A stretch of 64,000 bases of DNA from Selaginella tamariscina. Its lineage: Eukaryota; Streptophyta; Lycopodiopsida; Selaginellales; Selaginellaceae. The notes beneath the pieces are model-generated. The model saw nothing but the letters and a program-made list of their open reading frames with translations. It had not been told where the DNA came from and did no database searches. Positions 9,031 to 54,828 of this stretch are shown piece by piece; position 1 is the first letter of the stretch; each line of letters starts with the position of its first letter. The stretch covers positions 1-64,000 of the forward strand of contig PUQB01000353.1 of NCBI GenBank assembly GCA_003024785.1, read 5' to 3'. Position numbers and translations under genes: made by a program.

Positions 9031-11507
9031 ATGTTCACAAGATTTCTGCAGAAGAGTGGCGTTATAGAACAGACCTTGGTGACTGTAACTCCCTCAGTTC
9101 ACAACTATGCATCTCTCTTGCGAGGAACAAAGGACTTCATGGAAGGCAAATGCATCCACGACCACATGGTTACAAATGGTTATGGAAACCATAGTTTTCT
9201 AGGAAACCTTCTTGTTCAAATGTATGGGAAAGCTGGCAGGGATGACCATGCAAGGAGCGTATTTGATACCATACAAGAGAGGAATGCTTTCTCATGGACT
9301 CTCATGCTTTCTCGTATGCCCACAACGGTCATTACACACAGTCCTTGGAGCTCTACCATACAATGCTTCTCGAGGGATGTAGAGCTGACGAGTTTATGCT
9401 TTCTACTGTGCTCGGTGTATGCTCGGTCATCGGCAACATACAAGAGGGAAAGCGTATCCATACACATGTACTGGAACTCGGGCTCGAATCCGACACAGTA
9501 GTGCAGAACTCACTGGTGAGCATGTATGTGAGATGTGGGTGTCTAGAGTTAGCAAGACGCGTGTTTGATGCAACGGAAAAGAAAGACATGGTCTCGTGGA
9601 ACGTAGTGATGGCTGCATATAACCACAACAACAGGTACGCTGAGACTCTTGCGACATATCACCAGATGGTACAGCAGTACGAGGTTAATGAAGTGGCGTA
9701 TGTGGCTGCGGTCTCTGCCTGCTGTGGTCTGGTAGACCTGGAACAAGGCAGACAGATACACGCACAGATGCCCGGGAATGCTTATCCATTGTGGAAGTTC
9801 GAAACGCACTTATCAACATGTATGGGAAATGTGGGAGCTTGAGTGAAGCACAAAGTGTGTTTGATCAGACTGTTGAGAAGAGTTTAGTGTCGTGGAACGC
9901 GCTTGTTGCAGCATATGCACATTGTGGGCATTCTAGAGATGTGTCGTATATATGCTGCAGAATGGACCACGAAGGAGTGGAGATGAGCAAGGCAACTTAT
10001 GTTTCAATAATATCATGCTGTAGAGACCGCAAAGATCTCGAACGCGTCCATGCTCGTGGGTTGGCTACTGGGCATGTACTAGACGTGGTGGCTACGTCTC
10101 TCATAGATGCATATGCCGGACTTGGTCTCTTAGGCGACGCTAGACAGGTCTTTATATCGGTTCCTAAGAACGTTTTCGTGTGGAACTCGATGATCGGAGC
10201 CTGCGTACGGAACGAACGAAACGTCGAGGCACTTGCTTGCTTCCATGAGATGGAGCTGGAAGGAGTGAGAACCACAGAGATTACGATGCTCGAGGTCATG
10301 GGGGCGTTCACGGCCCCACCATCTCAGTTACTGTGAGGAGATGCATGCCAGGATATCCGCGTGTGGGTACAAGTCGAGCATCCTCGAGAACACACTTATC
10401 AATGCGTATGCCAGATGTGGGAGCATCGCAGACGCCAGAAGGACCTTCGATGCGATGGAAGTCGACTCTAGAACGGCTGTCTCATGGAATGCCATGATAG
10501 GTACATACATTCAGAACTTGCAGGACCGGGAAGGACTGAGGTTGTACTCGGAGATGGAGGCCGAGCCAGACTCGTTCACATTCGCGACCGTTCTGGGTGC
10601 CTGTGCAAACCTTGAAGATCTCTTCCAAGGAGTGCTTGTTCACAGCAGGATAAAAGAATACCAAGTGGACGATGTAATCGCCACAGCATTGATTAACATG
10701 TATGGCAAGTGCCGCGATGCACACAATGCCCGTCTGGTCTTTGAGAATAGGAACTCTTCAAGCGTTGTAGTGTGGAATGCCATGGTATCCGCTTATGCGC
10801 AGTCCGACAGAGAGACACAAGCGCTCAAGATTTTCAAGCGGATGGACTTGGAAGGAATCAAGCATGTTCAAGCAAGCTATGTATGCATACTAGGTGCGTG
10901 TAAAGGAGGAGGATCAGGGCAAGAAATACACTCACGAATAGGTGTTCTCGACGAGGAAGTCGCCGCGGCACTCATAAGCATGTACAGCAGGTGCGGAAGC
11001 CTAGAGAGTGCACGACTTGTGTTCAAGGAGGCGTGTTTTAACATGGCGGCCACCGCAATGCTTGCGGCGTATTCCCATCATGCGTGTGGGAATGATGCAC
11101 TGGAGCTCCTGTGGGTGATGAGCGTGGAAGGCTTGAATGTGAGTGAGATGAACTTCACCAGCATTTTGAACGCTTGCAGCCACGCGGGAATGACGGACGA
11201 GGCGTGTGCGAGCTTCCGGGACATGTACAGTGAGTTTGGTATCCAGCCTGCAGTGGAGCATTACGTGTGCATATGTGACGTGCTAGCGAGGGCCGGGTTG
11301 TTATCCCAGGCCGAAGAGCTGATGAGGAACTCACCTTTTCAGCCTGATGGTGTAGCCTTGAAATCTCTATTAAATGCTTGTAGAGTTCAGGGGAATGCCA
11401 TGCTCGCTGCACATCTCGCTGGAACAGTTGCTGAGCTCGAACCCGCCGTGTCTGCTCCATACATTCTGCTGTCTGATATATATATGCAGCCTTCTAGTCC
11501 AATCTAA
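9031..11507 (+). CDS. PLS-class pentatricopeptide repeat (PPR) protein, frame interrupted three times
   Basis: PPR proteins bind single-stranded RNA in plastids or mitochondria, one repeat per base, and act in processing or editing. The single-exon coding region begins at an ATG at 9031 and ends at a TAA at 11505-11507, about 820 residues. Repeats carry the expected signatures: GNLLVQMYGKAG, NSLVSMYVRCGCLELARRVF, NALINMYGKCGSLSEAQSVF, VSWNALVAAYAHCGHS, TLINAYARCGSIADARRTF, ALISMYSRCGSLESARLVF and FTSILNACSHAGMTDEA. The C-terminus reaches the E-type region (YILLSDIYMQ) but has no DYW domain. The frame changes near 9313 (one base missing), within CCCGGG near 9773, and within GGCCCC near 10315. 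Each break lies inside well-conserved repeats and could be an assembly indel; otherwise this is a recent pseudogene. Confidence 0.85.
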
Positions 11508-22095: not shown

Positions 22096-22130
22096 GGTCT
22101 CGGCGAAAAGGAGGCTCCGGCTCAGGAGGC
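22096..22130. repeat. Left terminal inverted repeat of the transposon
   Basis: Begins GGTCTCGGCGAAAAGGAGGC. Compared with the reverse complement of 30280-30246, roughly 27 of 35 positions agree with one gap, including GTnTCG, GGAGGCT and CAGGAGGC. Confidence 0.65.
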
Positions 22131-22139
22131 TTCATATTA

Positions 22140-22212
22140 TTCTAGTATATTCGCGGATATTCTAGGGTTATTCTAGCATATTCTAGAATATTCTCAAGAA
22201 TATTCTAGAATA
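22140..22212. promoter_or_regulatory. Left subterminal heat-shock-element-like array
   Basis: The stretch 22181-22210 reads TTCtaGAAtaTTC, a four-base gap, then GAAtaTTCtaGAA, that is, six alternating nGAAn/nTTCn pentamers, with further ATTCTAG words from 22140. The minimal HSF site needs three such pentamers. A matching array lies near the right end at 30215-30237. It might equally be a transposase-binding repeat. Confidence 0.5.
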
Positions 22213-22309
22213 TATAAGTTTTTTTAATATGCCGACTGGTTTAATATACGCCGACTGGCTTAATATATGCCACTGGCTTAATAAAACATTATCCTAAACC
22301 CTAAACCAT

Positions 22310-25300
22310 TTATCCTTGTAGCACCGGTGGGTCATGAACTCTGTTGCAATTCACCAGCAAACGGTGGACCTCCATGTCACTGAGCGATCGCCTTTGTAGA
22401 AAATATGTGACTTCCGGGTTCAAGCCAAGCACACGGCTATAGACGAAGTACATGTGTACACATGGGCTCCAACTTTTGCTCTTCTGAAATGTAGAACAAC
22501 TGCATGAAGGATAAGTATTAATAGTCACCTTTGCAGAGTCATTTCCTGCCGACACAACGAAAGCCTCCTTCCGTCCTCTAGCTGTCACTTCAACATTTCG
22601 CACACAACCTAAAAACGTCTTGGCCTTGCGGAAATTCTTCTCTTGTTCCTTAGACATTTTTGTTGGAGTCCGACCATACGTCCTTCGAAAGGTGGAATTG
22701 TTGTAGATCCAGCTCCACGTGGTGGCGATGGTGTTTTGTCCTTCTGACCCTCATCTACTCTTCCTGCCATCCCCTGTAAACCTTCCAGAACAAAGCCTGC
22801 ATCCTGTAGTTCTCTGACCTCCTCACTTGTCAGCTTCGTTTCCTTGAGCACAGGCCAAACCGTTGGTGGTGTTGGAATCGTGACCGAAGAATTTTGCCGT
22901 TTGGCCGCGTGAAACACCCTGAATCTTTTGGGCAGAACCACATCATCTGTTGTACATACTCCTCATTCCCCAAGGCATCAATGTACATTCGTTTTCCATA
23001 GAATCCTGGTGCTGGCACTCTGCTTGGATAACCGATTGGTTTTCCACACAGAGCAGTTCCTTCCTGATTCATCCCCAAACACTTAACCTTACTGGATGCT
23101 CCGATTCGTCTGATGGCCCACTCTGTTTGAGCAATCTCTCTCTCCGAAACCTCTTCGAACCTTAACCTCTTTCTCCTGTTGTTTTGGACCACCCGCTCTG
23201 TGTACTCTACATCATGTCTGTGTGAACGTCGAGCATCAGACTGTTCTGTTCCTGTGACTGTTCTCCTAACAGTTTGCACTCGAACGTTAGTGGTACTCGT
23301 GAACTCCGGGCTGGTCAAGTGTTCCTCGCCTTCCACCAGATTTGATAATTGTTGATGGAGATACACTTTTCCCCTCAGAGAGTTTGCGTTGCACTCGTTT
23401 CAACAGAGTTTCCTTCGAAGGCCCTGACCCTGTATACCTCCCTTCTATTGCCGCTTTCACCTTCGCACTCTGCATAACTGCATCGGTGAGGTCTAACATT
23501 GTCGCCTCCAGCAGTGGTACTCTTTTGGCCAATCTTGCTCTTCTTGCTCTCGCGTGAATCACTTCAGCATTGTTTGTAGTTGGAACGCTCGCGAGTCCTT
23601 CTTCTGTCATGTCTCCCAGTTCCGCCATGGAGATGTGGTCCTCATGCCTGATCCACCAAGACAGCCATGTCTTCAAAGCTCGAATGTTTGACGCTCGTCC
23701 TTCCCAAAAAGACTCGAGAATTGCCAGTTGTTCTTTCTTAGATTGTTCATTCAGTGCTGCAGGCCAGGCACGAGCAAGCTTCATGTGTTCTTCGCGATGT
23801 TCTTCTGCGATCCATTTCTTTGTCACCTGACGCACGGATTGCATAAAGTGAAACAGACAGCTTCTTTCCCTCCCTTTCATCTTTGCTCCGTTGTTGAATA
23901 CTTGGCGCAAGGCTATCCATATCGCTCCAGCCTCATCCGACATGAAACCAGCAAAGTTGACATTCTCCAAACCCTGCTTCTTACAAACCTCTAGCATTGT
24001 GTTCAAGAACTTCAGCACTGCAACATTATCTTCGCGGCACATATCTGCGTAAGCTATAGTCACCATGGATCTGACACTGCAAGAGAGCGTTAGATAACGA
24101 AGATTAGAAAGTGTTATGAAGAGTTTTACAACTTACAATGGGTCATAAAGGTGTATTCCAATTGTCGCCCAGTCTGGTATGCGGTGCGTGTGGTCCAGAA
24201 CAACCCATTGATCATGAAGGTCTCCTCCACTTTGACACCTTCTGATGTACTCAACTCCTGAACCCGGTCCCTCAACTGTCATTTTGAAGATCAGAGGCTG
24301 CTCCTCAGCACCATGCAGTTCCATCCCTGGAACATGTATGACGTGAATGAAAGGTATTGGCAGCTTTGTCTTCAGCTCCAGAAGACCCTCGTAACCCTCT
24401 CTAAAGTGTGTCTCCTTCTGTCTTGATTGTGTAATCCAGTCCCGAGTCCTAAAGAAAAGGTCACGTCAGTGTGTAGAGATCTAAAAAAAATACCTTCGAT
24501 GGTTTGTTAGAGGTTCAAGTTTTGAGAGTAAACCAGTGTACGAGACTTCTCCTTCTTCCTTGAAAAGTTCTTCAAAGATGAGCTCACGCGCGGCTTGAAA
24601 CTCAATCACTCGTTGATTGGTTCGCGGACTGCTCTTTACCACGTTGCTGACACTAGATCTGGCTCGCTGAACGTTTGAAGCTGACACTGAGGGGCTGACT
24701 GGATGCTGATGAACACCTCTGTGAATGAACAACCTTGTAAAAGAAATGTCGTCTGGCAGAATGTAGTACACATAAGCCGGACAAGTGTGCACCAGCAATG
24801 GCTCCTCTCCACAATGCTTACATTTATGCCTATTACTTTGCCTGTCTCAGTTGTCTTTGCCTTCTCCACAGCACCCTTGAAGTGACATTCATTTGCTTTC
24901 TTCTCAAAAGCCAAGTAGGGGCAGTAGGATTGATGCATTGGAGATGTCCGACACATGAACTTCGACTGACTCGCGCCGGAACATGCCAGTGTGTTGTGCT
25001 CGGGTGTGTCCAATGGTAGCAGCCATCCTTGCGATTCATCCCCGAGTACTTCTCTGTGCTTTCTGTCTTAGGGGGAAGTTCGTAAATGACATTTCCATTG
25101 TATATCTGCGGTAGTTCAGAGACTCGTTTAACTTCAGACGAACCAATGAGATCCTTCCCTATCCTACATTTGTCTGCTCTTAGAAGACACACCAGCATGG
25201 ATTCCTCACGCTCCTCTGTCCGCAACCTGAACAACGGGCCCTTTGCCGGGCACAATGTGTAAAAGACAAACTGGTTTGATGCATTGCCTTCTGGTAACAA

Positions 25301-25468
25301 CTCCACATCTTCTCCAGAACTCGCAGAAACTGACATCAATTGAACCACATGTATAAACCAACAAGGAATGTTGAAAGCAATGTGAAGATCATGTTCAAAC
25401 ACAAAAGCATTTCCATCTTCATCGACTGGGAAATCTTTGTCAATGCCTTCATAGGTAACTCTGGCCAT
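22310..25468 (-). pseudogene. MULE-type DDE transposase with zinc clusters and SWIM finger, frame interrupted
   Basis: Mutator-like transposases cut and paste elements by a D-D-E RNase H-fold nuclease. The frame opens with ATG at 25468 (MARVTYEGIDKDFPVDEDGN). Next comes a C/H-rich region (LACSGASQSKFMCR, SYCPYLAFEKKANECH) and a WRKY/GCM1-like finger (HKCKHCGEE, then FIHRGVHQHPVSP) around 25010-24690. The catalytic core has VVLDHTHRIPDWATIGIHLY (first Asp, near 24200), FAGFMSDEAGAIWIALRQVF (second Asp), SCLFHFMQSVRQV and PTTNNAEVIHARARR (Glu, near 23580). A further cysteine cluster includes CLGMNQEGTALCGKP and WFCPKDSGC. The C-terminal SWIM finger CSCSTFQKSKSWSPCVHMYF has the CxC...CxH pattern. 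Introns lie near 24490 and 24100. One-base shifts occur near 25020, 24830 and 22920. Confidence 0.75.
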
Positions 25469-25929
25469 GACAACGCAAGGAGAAAGCTCGGTGGTTTAGG
25501 AAAGCAAAGCAAAAGATTAAACACACTTTCTCTTACCAAAAAAAAATTACAATCGTTAACAATAAACGTGAATACACGTTTGTATATAATTAATTCTATG
25601 CTGCCCAGTTCACAGTGTTCTTAATGATGTCCTCTCTAGTATCACCGATTTAATTTAATTTCTACCTTTTATGATTTGAAATATCTTCACATTTACCAAT
25701 TATTCACATATTTTAAAATAAACCCTAAATATTAATGTCACATTTATTCCGTAGGGTTCACTGTTTTCATTGCGGCTAGGGTTCTTTCAATCTCAGATCT
25801 GTTTCCACTACGGCAGATCCAGAGGGTTTCTTCAATTTCAGATCTCAGAGTTACGGTTTCCACTGCGGCGCCATCCATTTCGACTCGATTCGTGCAGCGC
25901 CCAAGTATAACAATGGAGATTTCTGTTTA

Positions 25930-26790
25930 TTAGGGTCTTCTTATTTGTGCCGACTAAGAGCAACGGCACCATCCTGGTTCAGTCGGCAAACACAAGGTAT
26001 CGTCGATTTATTTATTTTTTTCCTTGCGGCTCAAGTATACGTGTCACATATTTTTTTTTCAGAGTTAATGGGTCTTTCCATTTGTGCCGACTGAGAGTGA
26101 CGGCACCATCCTGGTTCAGTCGGCAAAAACAAGGTATTTTCGATTTGTTTTTTTTTTGCTTTCTGGCTCAAGTATTTGTATCACAAGGTTTTTATTTTCA
26201 GAGTTAATGGGTCTTCCCATTTGTGCCAACTGAGAGTGACGGCACCATCCTAGTTCAGTCGGCAGCCACAAGGTATGTTCGATATATTTATTTTTTGCTT
26301 TCTGGATCATGTATTCGTATCACATTGTTTTTTTTAGAGTTAATGTGTCTTCTCATTTGTGCCAACTGAGAGTGACGGCACCATCCTTCTTCAGTCGGCA
26401 GCCACAAGGTATTTTGAATTTGTTTATATTTTGCTTTGCGGCTCAAGTATCCGTATAACAATGTTTTTTTTTCAGAGTTATAGTGTCTTCCCATTTGTGC
26501 CGACTGAGAGTGACGGCACCATCCTTCTTCAGTCGGCAGCCACAAGGTATTTTGAATAATTTTTTTTTTTTTTGCGTCTCAAGTATTTCTTTTAAAACAG
26601 TTAATGGGTCTTCCCATTTGTGCCGTCTGAGAGGGACGGCACCATCCTATCTCAGTCGGCACCATTATCTCTTCAGTGCCGTCTGACAGAGTCGGCACAA
26701 ACTATCTCAGTCGGCAAGTTTTTTCTTCTACATCTCTCTCCGACTGAGAGGGTCGGCAATATTTAGCTTGAGTCGGCAACCACAGGGTTA
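25930..26790 (+). repeat. Central array of ~135-bp repeats with TGCCGACTGA/TCAGTCGGCA dyads and exon-like borders
   Basis: Six units start near 25931, 26070, 26205, 26342, 26482 and 26607 (spacing 139, 135, 137, 140, 125). Each contains TTGTGCCGACTGAGAGTGAC, GGCACCATCCT and TTCAGTCGGCA, giving an inverted repeat of TGCCGACTGA with TCAGTCGGCA about 20 bp apart. The first five end ACAAG followed by GTAT, and units two to five are preceded by a poly-T tract and an AG, so each looks like a 60-70 nt exon between introns. The last unit degenerates into clustered CGACTGAGAG and TCAGTCGGCA words up to 26790. The array separates the two divergent genes of the transposon, so it is probably their shared promoter/leader and may bind an element-encoded protein. 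Confidence 0.8.
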
Positions 26791-26874
26791 GTCATCTTTG
26801 TTTTTTTTTTTTTTTTTGTCTCCTAATTAATTGACTTGTGTGTTTGCTTTCCAGAGTTTACAAAATGGTGAGAG

Positions 26875-29800
26875 CTTCAAAACGTCTACTAGAGACTGCG
26901 CCTGATGAAGAGCCACGGGAAGAGAAGAGGATATCGAAGTAGAAGCGAGGCAAGAGAGGAGAACCATCTAATGTAGCAAAGGAGGATCCTCCAGTGACTC
27001 AGTCTGGAGTAGTAGCAGTTGAGCAAGAACAGCCTCCACCCAACAATCACAGATTTCCCGGAGAGCTCGTCGCAGTTGCCTCCTTCATCCGCTGAGGTTG
27101 CAGTCCTGAACGAGCAAGTGCAGATGACAGAGGCAGCTGAAGCTAGCAAGGACGACTTGGAGGAGGCAGTCAGCAAAAATAGAGGCCGCGGGAAAGCTGA
27201 TTCAAAAGGCAAGAAGGCGAAGAGCGATAAGGAGCCGAAGGTGTTATACAGCATACCGGCTAGCCTGCATTTGGAGAGCTCAGCGAACCTGCTCGACAAA
27301 ATTACTATCAAGGGACTTGGTGATCCTCCTGATGTGCCCATCTGCAGAATACATTCCAACGAGGTGGTTCGACGAGTGAACCCAGGGGACTTGGACAGGC
27401 TGGTGTCATCATTGAAGAAGGCTGGTTATCTACGCAACACGGCCTTGTTCATTCTGTCCATCGGAGATCGACTCACTGCTGAGGAGCTATCGGAGCTGTC
27501 GAAGGACACGATTCAGTACGAGTAGCACCGGTCTTTCGAGCAAGCTCTTACTCAGCCGGAGTACAAACAGTGGGCTTCAAGGCTCTCAAACAGGAAGTTT
27601 AGCTGCTGGGACGGGAACCATAGGCTACAGGCTTTGCAGAAGCTGTACCGAGAGGATGCAGAGGACAACCAGCGATGGGCTATTCGCGTTCGATCGAGTT
27701 TCATCTCCACGGAGAACCTCGACATTCTTCAATTGGTTTCGATGTTCCAATCAATTAACATGTGAGTATTTTCTTTTCTTTTTGTTAAGAGTTTAGACTT
27801 ACAGTTTTCGTTGAACAGATCTTCAGCAACATCTGTGGAAACAACGCCCACATATTCTCCTCGCTGTAAAGGCGGTCTGCACTAGTACAGAAGGAACTCA
27901 GAAAATCCTCGAGTCACTCACGGAGGTTGATCATCTTGAGGTGCGGAAGTGGAAGGAGAGTTCATCAGGAAAGACGGTTGGCATCCTCTTCCGAACCTGA
28001 TCTGCGCAAAGATACTTTTCAAGGTAACCTCCGATTTAATTTATAGGAAAGAAATTTTTAACTTGTTCTATGTGCAGAACGAGATCGACGATGATCTCGA
28101 CAGAGCAGTCACCAGTGCTAAGGGCAATTCACAGGTTGAGGTGAACCTAAGCAGCTAGTGTACAAGAAGCATGACAAGCGTATGCACAAGTTCCTCTCCA
28201 TCATAGACCCAGACTTGGGGGAGGAGTGGTTCCAGAAGGTGACAAACATCTCTCATAAGCAGTGTCGCTGGATGGGCATTGAGAAGCTGTATGCGATGTC
28301 AAGGGCGAAGATTCCAAACATGCTGCGACTCCGATACCTGAACAAGCTCACCCGTCTCGAATCCAAGGCAGAACAACAGACACTTGGGCTACCGGGCATG
28401 CAGGACAAAGAGTGGATCAAGTGGTTCACCTTGGACTTATATTGGAAGGCTGTGCGCGAGGAAGCCATTCAGATCCTTAAGGGGTTGCGAGAGGATGGTG
28501 AAGAAGTTGGAACGGATGTCGACTTCATGAGCTGGTTTGACGAGATGAGAATTCGGAGCAAGTGCCTGGTCTTTCAGCCCTTCCATGACTGCATACGGTT
28601 CACTTATTCGATGGAGCCGAATGAGTTTCTGGAGCGTGAGGAATCTGCGCGTCGGATGATATGGAGGTAAGCTTTCAATCCAGCATTGCTACTGTCTGAC
28701 TTTGTGTTGCAGGTTCATACTGGCGAAGCAAATGACACCGTCCCATACGATGAAGCTGTGGACAGATCATACAAGCGAGCCTCACATGTGGTCGAAGAGC
28801 AGAGGAGCTCTAACACCGTTCGAACGGGAGCATGTTCCATTCTGGCTCGACTGTCCGTCGCAACAGCCACCAGCTTGGGAGAGCACACTATTCGACATGC
28901 ACGCCAATGATCTACCAGCGATTGTTTGGGAGCCAGAAGTAGAGGCTATCAAGAAGAGCAAGATGAAGAAGACGGTGCGGAAGACAACTACACCTGCAAA
29001 GGGATCGGGAGCGGGACCAAGCTCTTCTACAGCACCTCCGCCGGCATTCGACTTTACAATCAATGAGGTACAGCCACTTGTAGCTAGTTTGGACATCAAG
29101 GACGACCTGATGACCTTCATCCCGACCCTGGCTGCATCCCGTGGATCCTACGACCTAGCTGTGTGCGACATGGAGGAGATGAGCAGGTCTTTCTTCGAGC
29201 CAGGTGCTTCCCAGACAGAGGTGTACACCAAGCTCCGAGAACAGGTTGACAGACTACATACGGTTGAGTCACAAACGTTGTTCCAGGAAGTGGTAGGTGA
29301 ATACGGCTTCAACCTCATCATCCTCGACTTGCCCAATGAGCTTGTATATGGAGGTGCTAGCATCAACAAGGACATTGTGCAGCTAGATCCGGTGAAGTTT
29401 GAGGAGGCCTTGCAGTTCAGTGGAATGCACTTGGCAGCGAGTGGTTTCATGGTCGTCTTCGCGAGTTCTCCTTCTGTTTCGGCGGTGATTCAGGCGGCTG
29501 CAGTAATCAACTTGGAGGTTGCAGGGACTTACAGCGTCTACCGTGCACGAGGCTGGGGATACCGTGACAAAATTAAGGTAAGCTAGCTATTCAAGTTCAA
29601 GTTTAACTTGGTCTATGTGGCAGGATAACTTGTTAGTTCTCTTGGTGCTGCAAAGCTCTGAGAAGAAGTCGAAGAGGCCAAACCCTCTGGCGTTGACGAA
29701 CACGATCCTCGTCGACACTGCCGACCGTTATCAGGAGGCTTGGTAAGGAAGTGCTTTGCTATGTTTATCCTAATGGAAGATTGTGCAGGATTATGATTCA

Positions 29801-30086
29801 ACCGAAGAGTGTTCGACTCATGCAGCTTTTGATCGAGCGTCTCAGTAGACCTGGCGACCTAGTCTGGGATATTGGTTCCGGAACCGGGTCATCATTGTTA
29901 GCTGCCGTCGAGCTCGGAAGGAATATTATAGGAACCGAGAAGAGTTTCGAACTCTCTAGGTTGGCAACAAACAAGCTTGCAGAGAACATTAGACCAGAAG
30001 AGTTACCTACTCAAACACCTCCACGTCCAAGCGTAACTGGTGGTTCGAGAACTGCAGCTTTACTTAAGATGAAGAAGAAACTTTAG
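26875..30086 (+). pseudogene. ParB-like domain fused to beta-class N4/N6 DNA methyltransferase, transposon-encoded
   Basis: The ATG at 26875 follows an AG acceptor (CTTTCCAG, AGTTTACAAA). A basic, low-complexity N-terminus leads into a ParB/sulfiredoxin-type domain: VPICRIHSNEVVRRVNPGDL and LDRLVSSLKKAGYLRNTALF near 27340-27450, then FSCWDGNHRLQALQKL near 27600, the hallmark GxxR-type motif. A long middle region (28160-29040) is unassigned. The C-terminus has FNLIILDLPNELVYGG where methyltransferase motif IV is expected, and after introns PGDLVWDIGSGTGSSLLAAV and ELGRNIIGTEKS, matching motif I and the following strand. Motif IV before motif I defines the beta class, typical of bacterial and phage ParB-methylase fusions. 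Motif IV reads DLPN rather than DPPY-like. In-frame stops at about 26940 and 27525 and a shift near 27045 break this copy. Introns lie near 27763, 28024, 28668, 29577 and 29745. Confidence 0.72.
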
Positions 30087-30164
30087 CTAATGTATATTGA
30101 GTAATAAATTAAGCTAATATAAAAAAAAATTAAAAAGAAATACAACAGTTTTAATAGAATTCTT

Positions 30165-30240
30165 TTTTGCCGACTGAGGCCAATACTGCCGACCAGAAAG
30201 AATATTCCAAAATATTCTAGAATATTCTTGAATATTCGAG
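30165..30240. promoter_or_regulatory. Right subterminal region: GCCGACTG words and heat-shock-element-like array
   Basis: TGCCGACTGAGGCC and TGCCGACC lie at about 30168-30195, echoing the central array. The stretch 30215-30237 reads TTCtaGAAtaTTCttGAAtaTTC, five alternating pentamers at perfect 5-bp register. The left end has the same pair of features (GCCGACTGG at about 22233-22262 and pentamers at 22181-22210). Confidence 0.5.
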
Positions 30241-30245
30241 CCCAG

Positions 30246-30280
30246 GCCTCCTGGGCCCCAAGCCTCCAAATGGCGACACT
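30246..30280. repeat. Right terminal inverted repeat of the transposon
   Basis: Reverse complement begins AGTGTCGCCATTTGGAGGCT and continues to CCCAGGAGGC, matching the left end imperfectly. Confidence 0.65.
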
Positions 30281-30290
30281 CCATAACGAG
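30281..30290. repeat. Right target-site duplication
   Basis: Exact copy of CCATAACGAG found at 22086-22095. After it the acyl-ligase exon repeat resumes with ACAGCGCGCCAATGTACATC. Confidence 0.8.
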
Positions 30291-32274: not shown

Positions 32275-34178
32275 TTAAACCACGTCCTTAACCTTCTGAT
32301 CAACAATATGCTCCTGTTCCTCTTTTGGAGAGCTGGTTGGAGATGAATATCCAAACGTGCTTGCAATGGAATGTATGAACCTGGAGGTTATACCTGGCTG
32401 TTCGTGAGTGTTTGGAGCCTGGTTCTCTTTAGAAGGGTTCTCTTCCTGCTCCACCTTTCCCTCGTTACCGCTGCCCTGTTTCGTTACTTCCTCGGGTTCT
32501 TTCGACTCATCAGACAGTGCCTTCTCTTCTGGTTCCACACTCCGTTCCGGACCTTCGTTTGAGGGCTGCATGTCTCTTTGAGCATCAGCAAAGCCTTCAT
32601 CAGTGTTATTAAGCTCGGTGTCCTTATGTGCTTCAGTTGTCTCAGAGAAGTCCTTGCTTGAAGGCTCGGTGTACTTATCTGCTTCAGTTGTCTCAGAGAA
32701 GCCCTTGCCTGAAGTGTCCATGTACTTATCTGCTTCAGTTGTCTCAGAGAAGCCCTTGCCTGAAGGGTCCGTGTACTTATCTGCTTCAGTTGTCTCAGAG
32801 AAGCCCTTGCTTGGAGGCTCGGTGTACTTATCTGCTTCAGTTGTCTCAGATAAGCCCTTGCTTGGAGGCTCGGTGTACTTATCTGCTTCAGTTGTCTCAG
32901 ATAAGCCCTTGCTTGGAGGCTCGGTGTCTTTATCTGCTTCAGTTGTCTCAGAGAAGCCCTTGCTTGAAGGCTCGGTGTACTTATCTGCTTCAGTTGTCTC
33001 AGAGAAGCCCTTGCTTGAAGGCTCGCTGTACTTATCTGCTTCAGTTGTCTCAGAGAAGTGCTCGCTTGGAGGCACGGTGTCCTTATCTGCTTTCGTTGTC
33101 TCAGAGAAGTCCTTGTTTGGAGTATTTATAGCATTAACATTTGCAGAACTTTCGTCCTCCAGCTTTGACTCAGCTGATGGTGTCTCTTGCTCCTTCAGTT
33201 CCTTCTCATCTGGCTTTGCATCCATAATTCCTCCTCCAGATTCCTCCTTCAGTAAAGAGTTCAAGTTAGAGTAAAGACATGCGCCTTTTATACATCTACA
33301 TGTGTACACAAATACATGTGTTCGTGTATATATATAAACATGTACAAATGTTGGAGCTGTCTTACCTGATTAGAGCTTGAAAAACCTGCATCGAGCATCT
33401 GAGAGGGTTCTCCTTCCTACAAGGACGAAGTACAGTGATTTATACAAAAACTCAATATCTGTGTCAGTACTTGCTAATACCTTACTAAAGCTCGGTGCAT
33501 CCACGTCATCTCCTCCAGAGATTCTTTCGTTTTCTCCAAGTTTTGACTGAAAATATTCAGCTTCAGAAAATGTGACACACACAAACACAGAGAGAGAGTC
33601 ACACCTGGTTTTGTTGCTGGCACGTCCTCGTGACGTTCTTCGGAACTTGGCACTTTGTTCTCATTTTCTCCAAAGCTCACCTACAAGAAGTCATCATCCA
33701 AGTTAAGTCGAGAAGTGGTTATGTATATTGAATATCTATGATAATACCTGTTCAGAACTAGGACCTTCAGACTTCGGCATTATGTTAGTGCTTTCACTTC
33801 CAAGACTTGTTTCCTCATGCTCGTTCGCGTCCTTTGCCTACAAGTTAAAGTTTAACAACCTATAAACTACAAATACTTGCAAAACACACACATACACAAC
33901 GCACGCACATTAAATGTTCGTGATATTACCTGTTCAGAGTTTCGGAGCTTCCCCAAAGCTGGTTTTTGCAGGTTCATAAACATCCTTCGCCTACAAACCC
34001 TACGATTTTAATCACACAGACTAGAAAACCAGCTTTCAAAATCTTACCTCAGAAGACATAGAACTTGGAGGCAAATCCATATCACGTGAGCTTTCAGTTG
34101 CTTCCTCATTAGTCTTAGCCGGCTTCTCGCTAGGTTCCTCACTGGCATCCTTTTCCTATGACCGTATAAGTCATTTTC

Positions 34179-50593: not shown

Positions 50594-53500
50594 TCATAAA
50601 CCTGTGGCCCTACTTGCCGTAGCACTCGATACGGCCTTTCCACTAGGAAGGAGACTCTTAGCTAAACCACGTACCGTAAGCTTGGGAAAACGAACCAACA
50701 CCAGTTCATCAACCTTGTACTCCGTAGGAGGACGATGATGCGAGTTGTAGCGTTGTTGTTGTCCTACTTGTACGCGGCCCAAGTGTTCTGCTGACTCCGC
50801 ACGAACCAATGGAAGAATGCTCGTCAGATACCGATCCCATGACCTAGCATCAGCAGCTCGCGGTAACCGAGAAGGCAAACCCAACTCCGTTGGCAACACC
50901 GGGTCATGACCATACAAGAGCTTATATGGGGAAGTACCAATGGAACTTTGAACTCCAGTGACATAAGCATATCGGAGAGACGGCAGATAACCATCCCAAT
51001 CCGAATGTTGAAAGTTCACATACTTCGCGATCATCCCTTGAAGGTTCTGACGAGCCGTTCCACTAAACCATCCGTCTGAGGATGATAAGCACTTGTGAAA
51101 GTGTGGTGTATCCTAGTCGAGACGTCAAAACATGAAATGCCTCAGCCATAAATGCGGACCATTATCCGAGAGAATTCGCTCCGGACAAGAATGCTGAAAC
51201 ACGACCCGATTCAGGAGAAACTGACCAACAGCAGAAGCAGTCGCACTAGCAAGAGCACCAACTTCTACCCAACGAGTTAGGTAATCAGAAGCAATAATAA
51301 CGTACTCGTTACCAAGTTGACCGCGGAAAAGGTCCCATCAAATCAAATGCCACCAATTCAAACGGACGAGAAACTGCAATTGACTCCAACCGTCCTTCCG
51401 AAGCACATGGGGGAGTATTGCGAGCTTGGCACCACACACAGCTACGCACATACCGAATCACATCTCCTCGCAACTCCGGCCAATAGAAAGATCTGCGCAG
51501 CTTCTCCATCACCCGACGATGTCCCATGTGCCCGCCAAGAATAGGAGAGTCATGGTAAGCATGGAGGAAGCGTGGAATGAAGATTGAAGGCACCACCAAC
51601 CGCAAAGGATCATCTGGATCAGTCCCCACAAAATAAAGAAGGTCATCCTGAAGGCGATACTGTGAATGTAAATGCCTGAAAGGCAAGTCATCAGCAAGTG
51701 ATGCAGGATTCTCAAACCCATCACGAAGCCTTCGAATCCACGGCTCAACCTTTTGAGCTTCCCGAACCTCATCCAAAGACGGCAAATCTAACTCTGCATT
51801 CTGCGGACACTGAACGTCAAGCACAGCAACTGCTGATGGTACGGAATCTTCATCCAAAAAGTCCACTGAAGCTGGAACAACTGGTTCCTCTGGGGCAACA
51901 GAAGAGAGAGAAGGTGGAAGAGGAGCCCGAGAAAGAGCATCAGCATCAGCCATGGAACTCCTGGATGAACAACTTCAAAGTCGTAAATTTGAAGTTTCAA
52001 GGCCCACCGAGCAGTACGCCCAATCAAATTCTTCCGCTTCAACAACGAAGTGACTGCTGCATGATCGCCTTCCAACAACGTCCGCGAACCATGCAAGTAG
52101 GCATGGAGCTTCTCAAAACCCCAAACTGCTGCTAGACACTCCTTTTCAGTCGTGGAGTAATTCACCTCTGCTGGCTGCAATGTACGGCTGATGTACGCAA
52201 TGGGATGTCGTTGGCCAGGAACACTCGTACTCTCCTGCATCAATACACCCCCGAGGCCGATGTCAGAAGCATCTACACGCAAGATGAAAGGACGGGTGTA
52301 ATCCGGGTACGCCAAAACTGGAGGAGTCGTCAACAACTCTTTGAGATCTGCAAATGCCTGCTTGCAATCCTTAGACCAAACAAAAGAAGTCATTGACGAT
52401 TTCAACAACGCGCGCAACGGTGCAGTACGATCTGAAAGATGATCCACAAAACGACCCAGATATTGTACCTTGCCAAGAAAGCGTTGCACATCATTCACAC
52501 ACTTTGGCGTAGGGAACTTCAAAACTGCAACTAGTTTGTCAGGATCGACTTGCAAACCTTCACGTGAAATGCGATAACCCAGATAAGTGGTGTCCTTTGA
52601 TCCAAACACACACTTAGATGGCTTCAACTTCAAACCAACTTCCCGCAGCGATCCAAAACCTTACGTACATCACCGACATGCTCCTCCCACGTTCCATCCG
52701 AATGGATCAAAACATCATCGATGAAATCGGCAGTCACCTCCGGCATGTCGCAAAGAACCTCGTCCATCATACGCTGGAAAGTTGCTGGAGCATTGCTCAA
52801 ACCGAAAGGCATCACCAGGAACTCGTACAGGCCAAATGGTGTCCGAAAAGCAGTCTTGGGAATGTCCATGTCAGCCATCGGAACTTGCCAATATCCAGAT
52901 GCGAGATCTAACTTGGTGAACCAACGGCTCCGCCCCAGTCGATCCAAAAGGTCTGCAGTATGAGGAAGTGGGTACACATCTGAGACGGTTACCTCATTTA
53001 ACGGGCGATAGTCAATGCAGAATCGAACGCTCCCATCAGGCTTCGTCACAAGGTGAGGTTCGCACGCCCAAGGACTTCGAGACTTCCGGATAACACCCTT
53101 CTCCAACATCTCTTTGACATTCGCTCGTAAGATCTTGAGCTCCTTTGGTGACGACGCCGAACAGGTACCTTGATTGGCCTAGCTTCTCCAGTTGGAATAG
53201 GGTGGCGTGTCGCAATCTTGGCCCCAGATGACAAGTCGAAGTTGAAAAGATCAGCATACTCCTTCTTGAGTTGATCAACAACTACAGCACGACGATCATC
53301 TGATGGATCCAAGAAGAAAGGAAGAGCATGAAGGGAAAATGGTTGGAAATAGGGTGAGACAAAAGTGATGGAAGCAGAGGTGGAAGCAGATGGACGAAGT
53401 GGAATAGAAGTAAGAGGAATGGAAGAAAGACGAGGGAGAGTCAAACAAGGGGGAGACTTTTCAAAGTCACACTTGGCATGATTGCGAGTTAACCAATCCA

Positions 53501-53850
53501 TACCAAGAATAAGGTGAAAAGCTTGACTCGGCACCACCCGCAAAGATTGAAGCTCGAGCTCACATCATCCACACGAACAACAATGTCCACTTCATCCGCG
53601 AACAAGCATGAGTATGTCCGTTGCCGTACAGAATGAAGACTGGTTCTACCGCACGACGCAAATGAAGGCTGCAACGTGTAGCAACAGATTGAGAAACAGA
53701 GGACAAACTTGAACCTGTATCCACCAACACTGAAAGGAAAACAGGACGTGGCGTGTGATTAAACGAGCTTGAAAAGTGAAAACCGGATGATTTGGTGCCG
53801 AGTGAACCCCTTGATGATACTCCCGAAAGAAAGATGGAGGGGTCACTAAT
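50594..53850 (-). pseudogene. pol polyprotein (protease, RT, RNase H, integrase), frame interrupted
   Basis: In order on the minus strand: protease with VFLSVLVDTGSSLSSVSQ (about 53730) and FHLILGMDWLTRN (about 53510); reverse transcriptase with WACEPHLVTKPDGSVRFCID, FTKLDLASGYWQVPM, MPFGLSNAPATFQRMM and the active site DFIDDVLIHSDG (53110-52640); connection/RNase H with KLKPSKCVFGSKDTTYLGYR, FILRVDASDIGLGGVLMQES and NYSTTEKECLAAVWGFEKLH (52633-52060); integrase zinc motif HAYHDSPILGGHMGHRRV ... CVWC and first catalytic Asp in VAFDLMGPFP (51620-51310), then the C-terminal GTSPYKLLYGHDPVLP region (to 50594). Frame changes near 53100, 51950 and 51300 separate the blocks. No chromodomain is recognised. 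Confidence 0.85.
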
Positions 53851-53872
53851 TTATTCGCACGAGGACCCTCCT

Positions 53873-54828
53873 CTACTCGTGCGATTCGTCGTTTCCCGGA
53901 AGATCCACCGCATCACAACCTTCCACTGCAGCAGCACCAACCGGACGTTGTTGACGCCATGGCCTCCATCCTGGAAATGGGGGACGCCAATCGGGAAACC
54001 GTTGACAGCGCCGATACGTGTGTCCAACCTCATCACATGCCCAACAACGAACTGCACGTCCACGTCCTCGTCCACGGGCCCCACCTTGTGCTGGTACACG
54101 AGCGGCAACAGCCTCAACCTCCATCGGAGCAGGTCCATCCCCAACATGAGTGGAACAGAGCACGTGAAGGCGCAAGTGGGAGAGGTGACGACTCATATCG
54201 TTGTGCCAGCCTCAAAGCATCGTCAAGAGTCACTGGAGCTAGTGCATGCACAAGCCCCACAAGGTCTTGACGAAGTGCTGGCCACAACATACCTAACTTG
54301 ATGCGTTCCGACATGTTAGGTTCTGCACGCAGCAAAAGGCTTCGAAAGCGAACACCAAACTGCATCACCGACTCAGATGGCTCCTGACGAATACGATGCA
54401 ACTGCTGAAAAGCATCATCACAGTCGTCCGCATGCCCAAATGCACGTTTGAAGATCTCTGGAAGAATATTCCAATCTCCACGAGTTGCAACGTCCAGACC
54501 ATTGTACCACTGCAACGCCGTCCCTTGAAGACAAGTAGGAAACTCGCGCAAACACTGAGCACCGTCCCACGAATGATATGTGGCAACCACAATGAAGTGG
54601 TCAAACCAATGGTACACATCATCTCCAGGATTTCCGCGAAAGAAATCCGGCGGACACGGGGGTTTGCAACATGAGTAGGAGGAGTACCCTGGCTGTGAAT
54701 GCTGCCATCAACTGAGAATGATTGTTCAGTTGCACACGCATGGCATCCAACAACTGCATGAGTAACTGCTCCACAGACAAGGGATTTGCCTGTTGTGGAT
54801 TCATGGACGAAGAAGAGACAAAATCCAC
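53873..54828 (-). pseudogene. gag of the Ty3/gypsy element, frame interrupted
   Basis: Starts near MNPQQANPLSVEQLLMQLLD at about 54806. The retrotransposon gag core follows (FDHFIVVATYHSWDG, GTALQWYNGLDVATRGDW, FKRAFGHADDCDDAFQQLHR, SVMQFGVRFRSLLLRAEPNM). The nucleocapsid zinc knuckle is CWACDEVGHTYRRC near 54040, the CX2CX4HX4C pattern. Frame shifts occur near 54660 and 54130. Confidence 0.8.

Follow-up and report, generated by a model that had tools for sequence, protein, structure and literature searches.

A probably MULE-like transposon family of Selaginella tamariscina with a conserved gene for a ParB-like, methyltransferase-fold protein

A stretch of 64,000 nucleotides from the lycophyte Selaginella tamariscina (contig PUQB01000353.1, positions 1 to 64,000 of the forward strand; hereafter the window) contains a DNA transposon of about 8.2 kb which encodes, besides its transposase, a second protein with a ParB-like N-terminal part and a methyltransferase (MTase) fold. 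The element has recurring borders and has moved within the genome, and the same divergent gene pair, with the same exon layout, is found in two sister families (family 1, which includes the window element, and family 2). The second gene has been kept under purifying selection, and an array of the short motif TGCCGACT lies between the two genes. The second protein is best read as an accessory protein specific to the element, acting in DNA binding, anti-silencing or transposition; we put a probability of about 0.6 on the reading that it binds candidate TGCCGACT sites and so keeps this element, which resembles Mutator-like elements (MULEs), expressed or mobile. The initial annotation of this DNA had proposed a plant transposon carrying its own intron-bearing ParB-like/MTase-fold gene, and that proposal stands, with a six-exon gene model and both genes inside recurring borders. 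The features are as follows.

22096..30280, no strand: whole element, ~8.2 kb; its left and right borders recur in copies L039, L040 and L044
22086..22095, no strand: left target-site duplication, CCATAACGAG; 9 bp, CATAACGAG, if the family right terminus CACTC is applied
30281..30290, no strand: right target-site duplication; 30281 (C) is probably the last base of the element, judged from other copies
22096..22213, + strand: left end, imperfect inverted repeat, GGTCTCGGC..GGAGGC..CAGGAGGC, followed by AATATTC repeats
30200..30280, - strand: right end, imperfect inverted repeat, GAGTGTCGCC..GGAGGC..CAGGAGGC read on the - strand
22310..25468, - strand: transposase gene, three exons as judged by eye; reading frame disrupted in the window copy
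25916..26800, no strand: central array between the divergent genes, ~137-bp tandem repeats holding 12 of the window's 14 TGCCGACT sites
22230..22237, + strand: TGCCGACT site near the left end
30168..30175, + strand: TGCCGACT site near the right end
26865..30086, + strand: ParB-like/MTase-fold gene, six exons; stops and frameshifts in the window copy
26865-27761, 27819-28023, 28078-28666, 28713-29577, 29624-29742 and 29789-30086, + strand: the exons of that gene
27598..27645, + strand: ParB/sulfiredoxin-like motif FSCWDGNHRLQALQKL, conserved in family 2
29326..29337, + strand: motif IV position, with D-L-P-N replacing (D/N/S)PP(Y/F/W)
29868..29891, + strand: S-adenosylmethionine (SAM)-binding motif I, DIGSGTGS, within the N6_N4_Mtase match
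L044, elsewhere in the genome: copy with an internal deletion and the same left and right borders as the window element
L041, elsewhere in the genome: copy whose left border is common with the window element and whose right end is truncated

As first annotated, a target-site duplication and imperfect terminal inverted repeats enclose two divergent genes. The sequence CCATAACGAG occurs twice in the window, each time abutting an element border, and is absent from the - strand. Comparison with other copies suggests that the right terminus of the element is ...GGCGACACTC, and for this reason the duplication is probably 9 bp long rather than the 10 bp originally given. A local alignment of the left and right ends, which are rich in AATATTC, scored 76, and the highest score among 300 shuffles was 66; these were mononucleotide shuffles of AT-rich ends. 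The insertion lies where two ~137-bp units of a tandemly repeated host sequence meet; judged by eye, this repeat does not account for the duplication.

The ends and duplications recur in other copies, as did the annotation's predicted gene pair. Ends were sampled in 25 copies (20 left-end stretches, four longer copies and the window), and both could be read in 20. Exact duplications of 9 bp or longer flank 15 of these (9 bp in ten, 10-11 bp in five); length was scored by exact match, and some copies leave the terminal bases ambiguous. Among 380 mismatched left/right flank pairs none shared 7 bp or more, and a chance duplication was rejected on this comparison. Because ends, duplications and gene pair recur across the genome, the observation is confirmed to be more than chance. 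Two flanks deserve separate mention: the right flank of L020 (left end L052) matches the window element near 22366, so that by eye one family-1 copy appears to be nested in another, and L011 and L015 (contigs C607 and C658) have identical right flanks and are probably one insertion seen twice, in a duplicated segment or an uncollapsed haplotype.

The window copy is one decayed member of a young, recently active, high-copy family of cut-and-paste DNA transposons. When exon 4 of the second gene was compared with the genome (300.7 Mb in 1391 contigs), more than 50 of the best 130 matches scored, out of 1964 candidates, were 99-100% identical. The mean pairwise substitution over the MTase half is 0.2% (29 copies, 406 pairs), a figure biased toward young copies since the 29 were the best-scoring ones; the window copy differs from them by 0.4%. 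Both genes are present in four of six longer copies (L039, L040, L041 and L044), and also in L043, where they lie around extra sequence and the stretch read ends within the copy. In L041 we noticed by eye a 9-bp near-duplication with one mismatch.

Judging from its splice sites and reading frame, the second gene is a real gene with introns. It encodes a protein of about 990 aa. The six-exon model was projected, from about residue 100 onward, on 30 loci including the window, and the eight splice sites scored for exons 2-5 read AG/GT in all 30. The frame is open over this length in nine of the 30 loci, which encode five distinct proteins; in one of the nine the stop codon is not at its usual place. 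Some of the indels in the copies could be sequencing errors.

A genome search with the Pfam profile N6_N4_Mtase (PF01555), in which the best 150 of 739 candidates were scored, revealed the second family. Eight loci were read, six belonging to family 1 and two (L094, L095) to family 2, and many further matches resemble family 2 by frame length. The family-2 copy L097 has the same layout as the window element, with amino-acid identities of 55% in the exon with the CWDGNHRL motif, 47% in MTase exon 4 and 72% in exon 6, and a family-2 transposase (L099) is 71-78% identical to those of family 1. In the one family-2 copy examined for it, no target-site duplication was seen. Additional copies carrying this gene pair, as anticipated, are numerous: among the matches listed there are at least 32 divergent MTase/transposase pairs in family 1 and at least 17 in family 2. 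The other three arrangements together account for three pairs in family 1 and one in family 2, and cross-family pairs for none. On the same lists, 32 of 113 family-1 and 17 of 25 family-2 transposase entries have a partner; the lists are partial, and an unpaired entry does not show the absence of its partner. The input consisted of 128 of the 130 exon-4 matches (two second halves were dropped), 105 of the 150 PF01555 matches, hand-picked mainly by frame length, and 138 transposase matches (113 + 25), with the family membership of single entries presumed. A host gene adjoining a transposon was rejected as an explanation, as both genes lie within element copies and the divergent pairs recur in both families.

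Could the second gene be a mere passenger, a captured fragment that is carried along without function? MULEs commonly capture genes; in addition, many copies, the window's own among them, are broken, and some have no partner gene at the expected place. However, the divergent pairing is conserved, and codon comparisons show the second protein to be under purifying selection across the two families, because synonymous sites are saturated between them (proportion of synonymous differences, pS, 0.87 over 331 codons) while the nonsynonymous proportion, pN, is 0.26. Within family 1, the ratio of nonsynonymous to synonymous substitution (dN/dS) is 0.24-0.47 in ten diverged copies, the better-informed of 21 aligned rows, values that are upper limits because dead copies drift. 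The rows omitted are five without changes (L066, L067, L071, L041 and the window), five with few changes (L042, L044, L069, L075 and L077, ratios 0.50-0.74) and L080 (0.57), which is misaligned beyond exon 4. In exon 4 of nine copies, 210 of 456 differences fall at codon position 3, with 152 expected if they were even; the copies have a common history, so this is no independent test. On dN/dS, exon-4 codon positions and the between-family pS and pN we rejected a passenger pseudogene, and consider a functionless passenger highly improbable. Long-term conservation of the gene suggests that the transposon depends on it, possibly for evading silencing.

In the second protein, the last exon matches N6_N4_Mtase (E = 1.5e-9, above the cut-off), as do representatives of both families, and the match covers the motif X/I region of beta-class N4/N6 MTases over a stretch of only about 60 residues. 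It also matches phrog_67 (E = 7.4e-12) and M.MboIIA (PDB 1g60; E = 0.0018, or 0.00073 with both families aligned). Exon 1, in the N-terminal part, contains CWDGNHRL, and DIGSGTGS lies in exon 6; the former is conserved in both families together with its neighbourhood. The ddrB-ParB profile reached E = 0.11 on an exon piece and DndB E = 0.014 on a joined 41-residue test piece, both under the cut-off. No ParB-like Pfam match was obtained with the whole second protein or with its domain alone in either family, and a search of exon 1 against PDB profiles gave no match.

A beta-class enzyme with motif I after motif IV had been predicted from the window sequence. The order is as predicted, with the motif IV position preceding DIGSGTGS, which is in place, but the residues at motif IV are not canonical. 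In catalytically active beta-class MTases the canonical motif at this position is (D/N/S)PP(Y/F/W). Here it reads D-L-P-N, in 19 of the 21 aligned family-1 rows and in the family-2 loci read (L094, L095 and L097). Judged by its distribution, D-L-P-N characterises the lineage rather than reflecting decay, because it survived a deep family split under purifying selection. Either the enzyme would function with an unusual active site, or the MTase fold would serve binding. These facts bear on the possibility of an active element-directed MTase, in which the ParB-like part would target the element and the MTase part would write N6-methyladenine (6mA) or N4-methylcytosine (4mC), thereby blocking silencing or guiding the transposase. 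The conserved SAM motif I and motif X region, the beta-class motif order and the purifying selection between families are all consistent with such an activity, and a bacterial 4mC writer that functions in a eukaryote is known (PMC8885841). On the other hand, there is the altered motif IV, and in the rotifer enzyme N4CMT mutation of SPPY to APPA is reported to have abolished activity (PMC8885841). We regard an active MTase as possible but doubtful; it would be a special case of our best explanation, and the odds of the two overlap.

The putative binding sites were found in the non-coding DNA. All 14 occurrences of TGCCGACT in the window lie inside the element, one near the left end, 12 in the central array and one near the right end. 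A first-order Markov shuffle gives 0.165 expected in the element, a comparison that overstates the excess, since the 12 sites in one tandem array are not independent. A short motif clustered in tandem repeats of non-coding element DNA is also a feature of the targets of VANC proteins, although here the motif was picked by eye after the repeats had been seen. The same layout recurs in family 1 in L040 (18 sites) and L044 (13 sites). In family 2, L097 has eight sites, in the central region and at the right end, with the array partly covered, and L098 has one near the left end. Within 25916-26610 of the window, inverted TGCCGACT/AGTCGGCA pairs lie about 32 bp apart, and the number of sites varies between copies.

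We consider TGCCGACT, which occurs near either end and in the promoter region common to the two genes, a candidate binding site. The second protein would recognise it at these places and, once bound, would act on promoter and ends, opposing silencing or aiding transposition, and could in this way sustain the element's expression or mobility, as VANC does in VANDAL elements of Arabidopsis. It might do so by writing a bacterial-type mark at the TGCCGACT sites or, given D-L-P-N, by SAM-dependent binding without ordinary methylation. The sites near both ends would also suit a transposition helper, acting in end pairing, nuclear import, or excision and repair, with TGCCGACT as the transposase's own subterminal binding site, and the lack of cross-family pairs among the matches listed is as expected if the two proteins cooperate. 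Transposase binding sites are usually terminal, however, and 12 of the 14 sites lie in the shared promoter region and not at the ends, so we think this explanation unlikely. More speculatively, the protein might be an anti-silencing clamp, SAM-responsive and sequence-specific, which would load onto the promoter TGCCGACT arrays and spread, a plant transposon counterpart of bacterial ParB/parS; we would give this long odds. On this reading a vascular-plant lineage would have kept such a ParB-like/MTase-fold protein, its catalytic motif changed to D-L-P-N, through at least one deep split.

Besides the dependence of the sites and the choice of motif, several points weigh against binding of TGCCGACT by the second protein as the means of keeping the element expressed or mobile. 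The transposase could be the TGCCGACT binder instead. The ParB/DGQHR-like N-terminal domain is assigned from motifs, no profile match being significant, and D-L-P-N makes methylation, and with it the marking or protection of element DNA first suggested, uncertain, with catalysis possibly lost. Among the six longer copies, the frame of the second gene is open throughout in none, and no single copy was seen with both genes intact. MTase-only or rearranged copies also exist: the transposase half was not seen in L042, and in six of eight diverged family-1 copies the transposase was not seen at its expected place. Separate halves, which the initial annotation had named as a refutation, are therefore partly present, with pairing otherwise conserved. 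Finally, five of the 20 copies with both ends read have no duplication of at least 6 bp, the left-end match was not found at the expected place in three of the 20 left-end stretches (L045, L048 and L053), and the stretch read for L059 ends inside the element.

The transposase has a Cys-rich N-terminal region, D-D-CxxH-E motifs (D in VVLDHT, D in GFMSDE, CxxH in RSCLFH and E in TTNNAE), which are kept in family 2, and a C-terminal SWIM-like CxC..CxH. MULEs have a D-D-(CxxH)-E pattern with SWIM, which these motifs may represent; duplications of 9-11 bp, in 15 of 20 copies, and imperfect terminal inverted repeats that recur between copies are as expected of them. The SWIM profile stays under the Pfam cut-off (E = 0.0037), the MULE domain PF10551 matches neither the exons of the window copy nor spliced pieces, its 77 matches in the genome do not include the window, and an hhalign comparison with one MULE from the same genome was not significant. 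Of the DDE/SWIM MULE transposase first proposed, the motifs and duplication length hold but not the profile; similarly, of the profile searches then suggested, N6_N4_Mtase matched while MULE and ParB gave nothing significant. The element is thus likely, though not proven, to be MULE-like, by duplication length and transposase motifs rather than by profile match. Elements of the Zisupton/KDZ superfamily make 8-bp duplications, which the 15 scored duplications do not fit, all being at least 9 bp by exact match, with some ambiguity at the termini of certain copies.

With regard to its surroundings, the window copy, in which both genes are disrupted by stops and/or frameshifts, adjoins an AMP-ligase-like gene (4CL-like, named by eye). 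Elsewhere in the window we noticed, by eye, frames resembling pentatricopeptide repeats (9267-11507, +) and reverse transcriptase, integrase and gag-like frames of a Ty3/Gypsy-type retrotransposon (50594-54707, -). About ten KGFSETTEADKYTEPSS repeats lie in one frame at 32275-33369 (-), a region open in several frames. An Rfam scan of the window gave nothing at gathering scores.

Relatives of the second protein were sought more widely. The protein database, searched for candidates having exact 5-residue words in common with the query, yielded no homologue at E <= 0.001 for exon 4, the spliced protein or the two-family alignment, and no relative was found in IMG/VR and GTDB contigs at the sensitivity available; the capture from a bacterium or phage that the initial annotation proposed is thus conjectural. 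With an E limit of 10, tblastn against phages hit 651 records, the lowest E being 0.009, and the twelve matches listed fall in the last part of the query. The initial annotation knew of no described plant element with this pairing. Our literature search likewise found no land-plant transposon with a ParB/MTase-fold gene, and a term search of the main text of one MULE survey (PMC6446971) met no mention of methyltransferase, ParB or Selaginella, but algal transposons with ParB-MTase genes have been published (PMC12477816).

Several known systems share individual properties with the Selaginella element. Phage ParB-N6N4-MTase fusions, as described in PMC12704722, combine ParB-like and N4/N6 MTase parts in one protein. 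Bacterial and phage beta-class MTases (M.MboIIA, DpnA, CcrM; PHROG 67) match in the motif X/I region, whereas here only about 60 residues match and the protein has D-L-P-N, a long extra middle region and six exons. Mariner elements of giant algal viruses carry methyltransferases (PMC3627910) and fungal transposons carry TET/JBP genes (PMC12730594), so both are DNA transposons with a DNA-modification enzyme fold; their enzymes and transposases are different, and the available portions of these reports mention no ParB-like part. In Arabidopsis VANDAL elements, the accessory protein VANC is encoded beside the transposase, and its targets are short motifs in tandem repeats of non-coding element DNA (PMC5735166). 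An anti-silencing system of the VANC type would further have its protein bind the motif and strip DNA methylation from the element. The VANC motif differs from TGCCGACT, and our system is known from sequence alone. To our knowledge, VANC is not a ParB/MTase-fold protein.

The closest likeness is to Sola1-1_Ec32 of the alga Ectocarpus, a DNA transposon in which a gene combining ParB-like and N4/N6 MTase domains lies on the opposite strand from the transposase; its protein is of similar length (1104 aa, versus ~990 aa here). The same report points to further examples from green and red algae (Iyer 2011, Petroll 2025) and suggests that such accessory proteins form a class whose members bind the transposon that encodes them and modify it (PMC12477816). 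The Selaginella element differs in its land-plant host, a MULE-like rather than Sola/EnSpm transposase, 9-bp duplications, six exons and D-L-P-N, the algal proteins being compared by description only. Arabidopsis, fungal and algal transposons have thus been reported with genes that possibly act on host silencing or DNA marks, and the conserved D-L-P-N raises the question of whether the ParB-MTase proteins of transposons, as a class, methylate DNA in the first place. A young, abundant element that comes in two sister families and offers an obvious candidate for the binding site lends itself to direct tests of function. The Selaginella element is a variant of the algal ParB-MTase transposon class; what is new is its occurrence in a land plant, with a MULE-like transposase and 9-bp duplications, two sister families under strong selection, a non-canonical motif IV and a site array.

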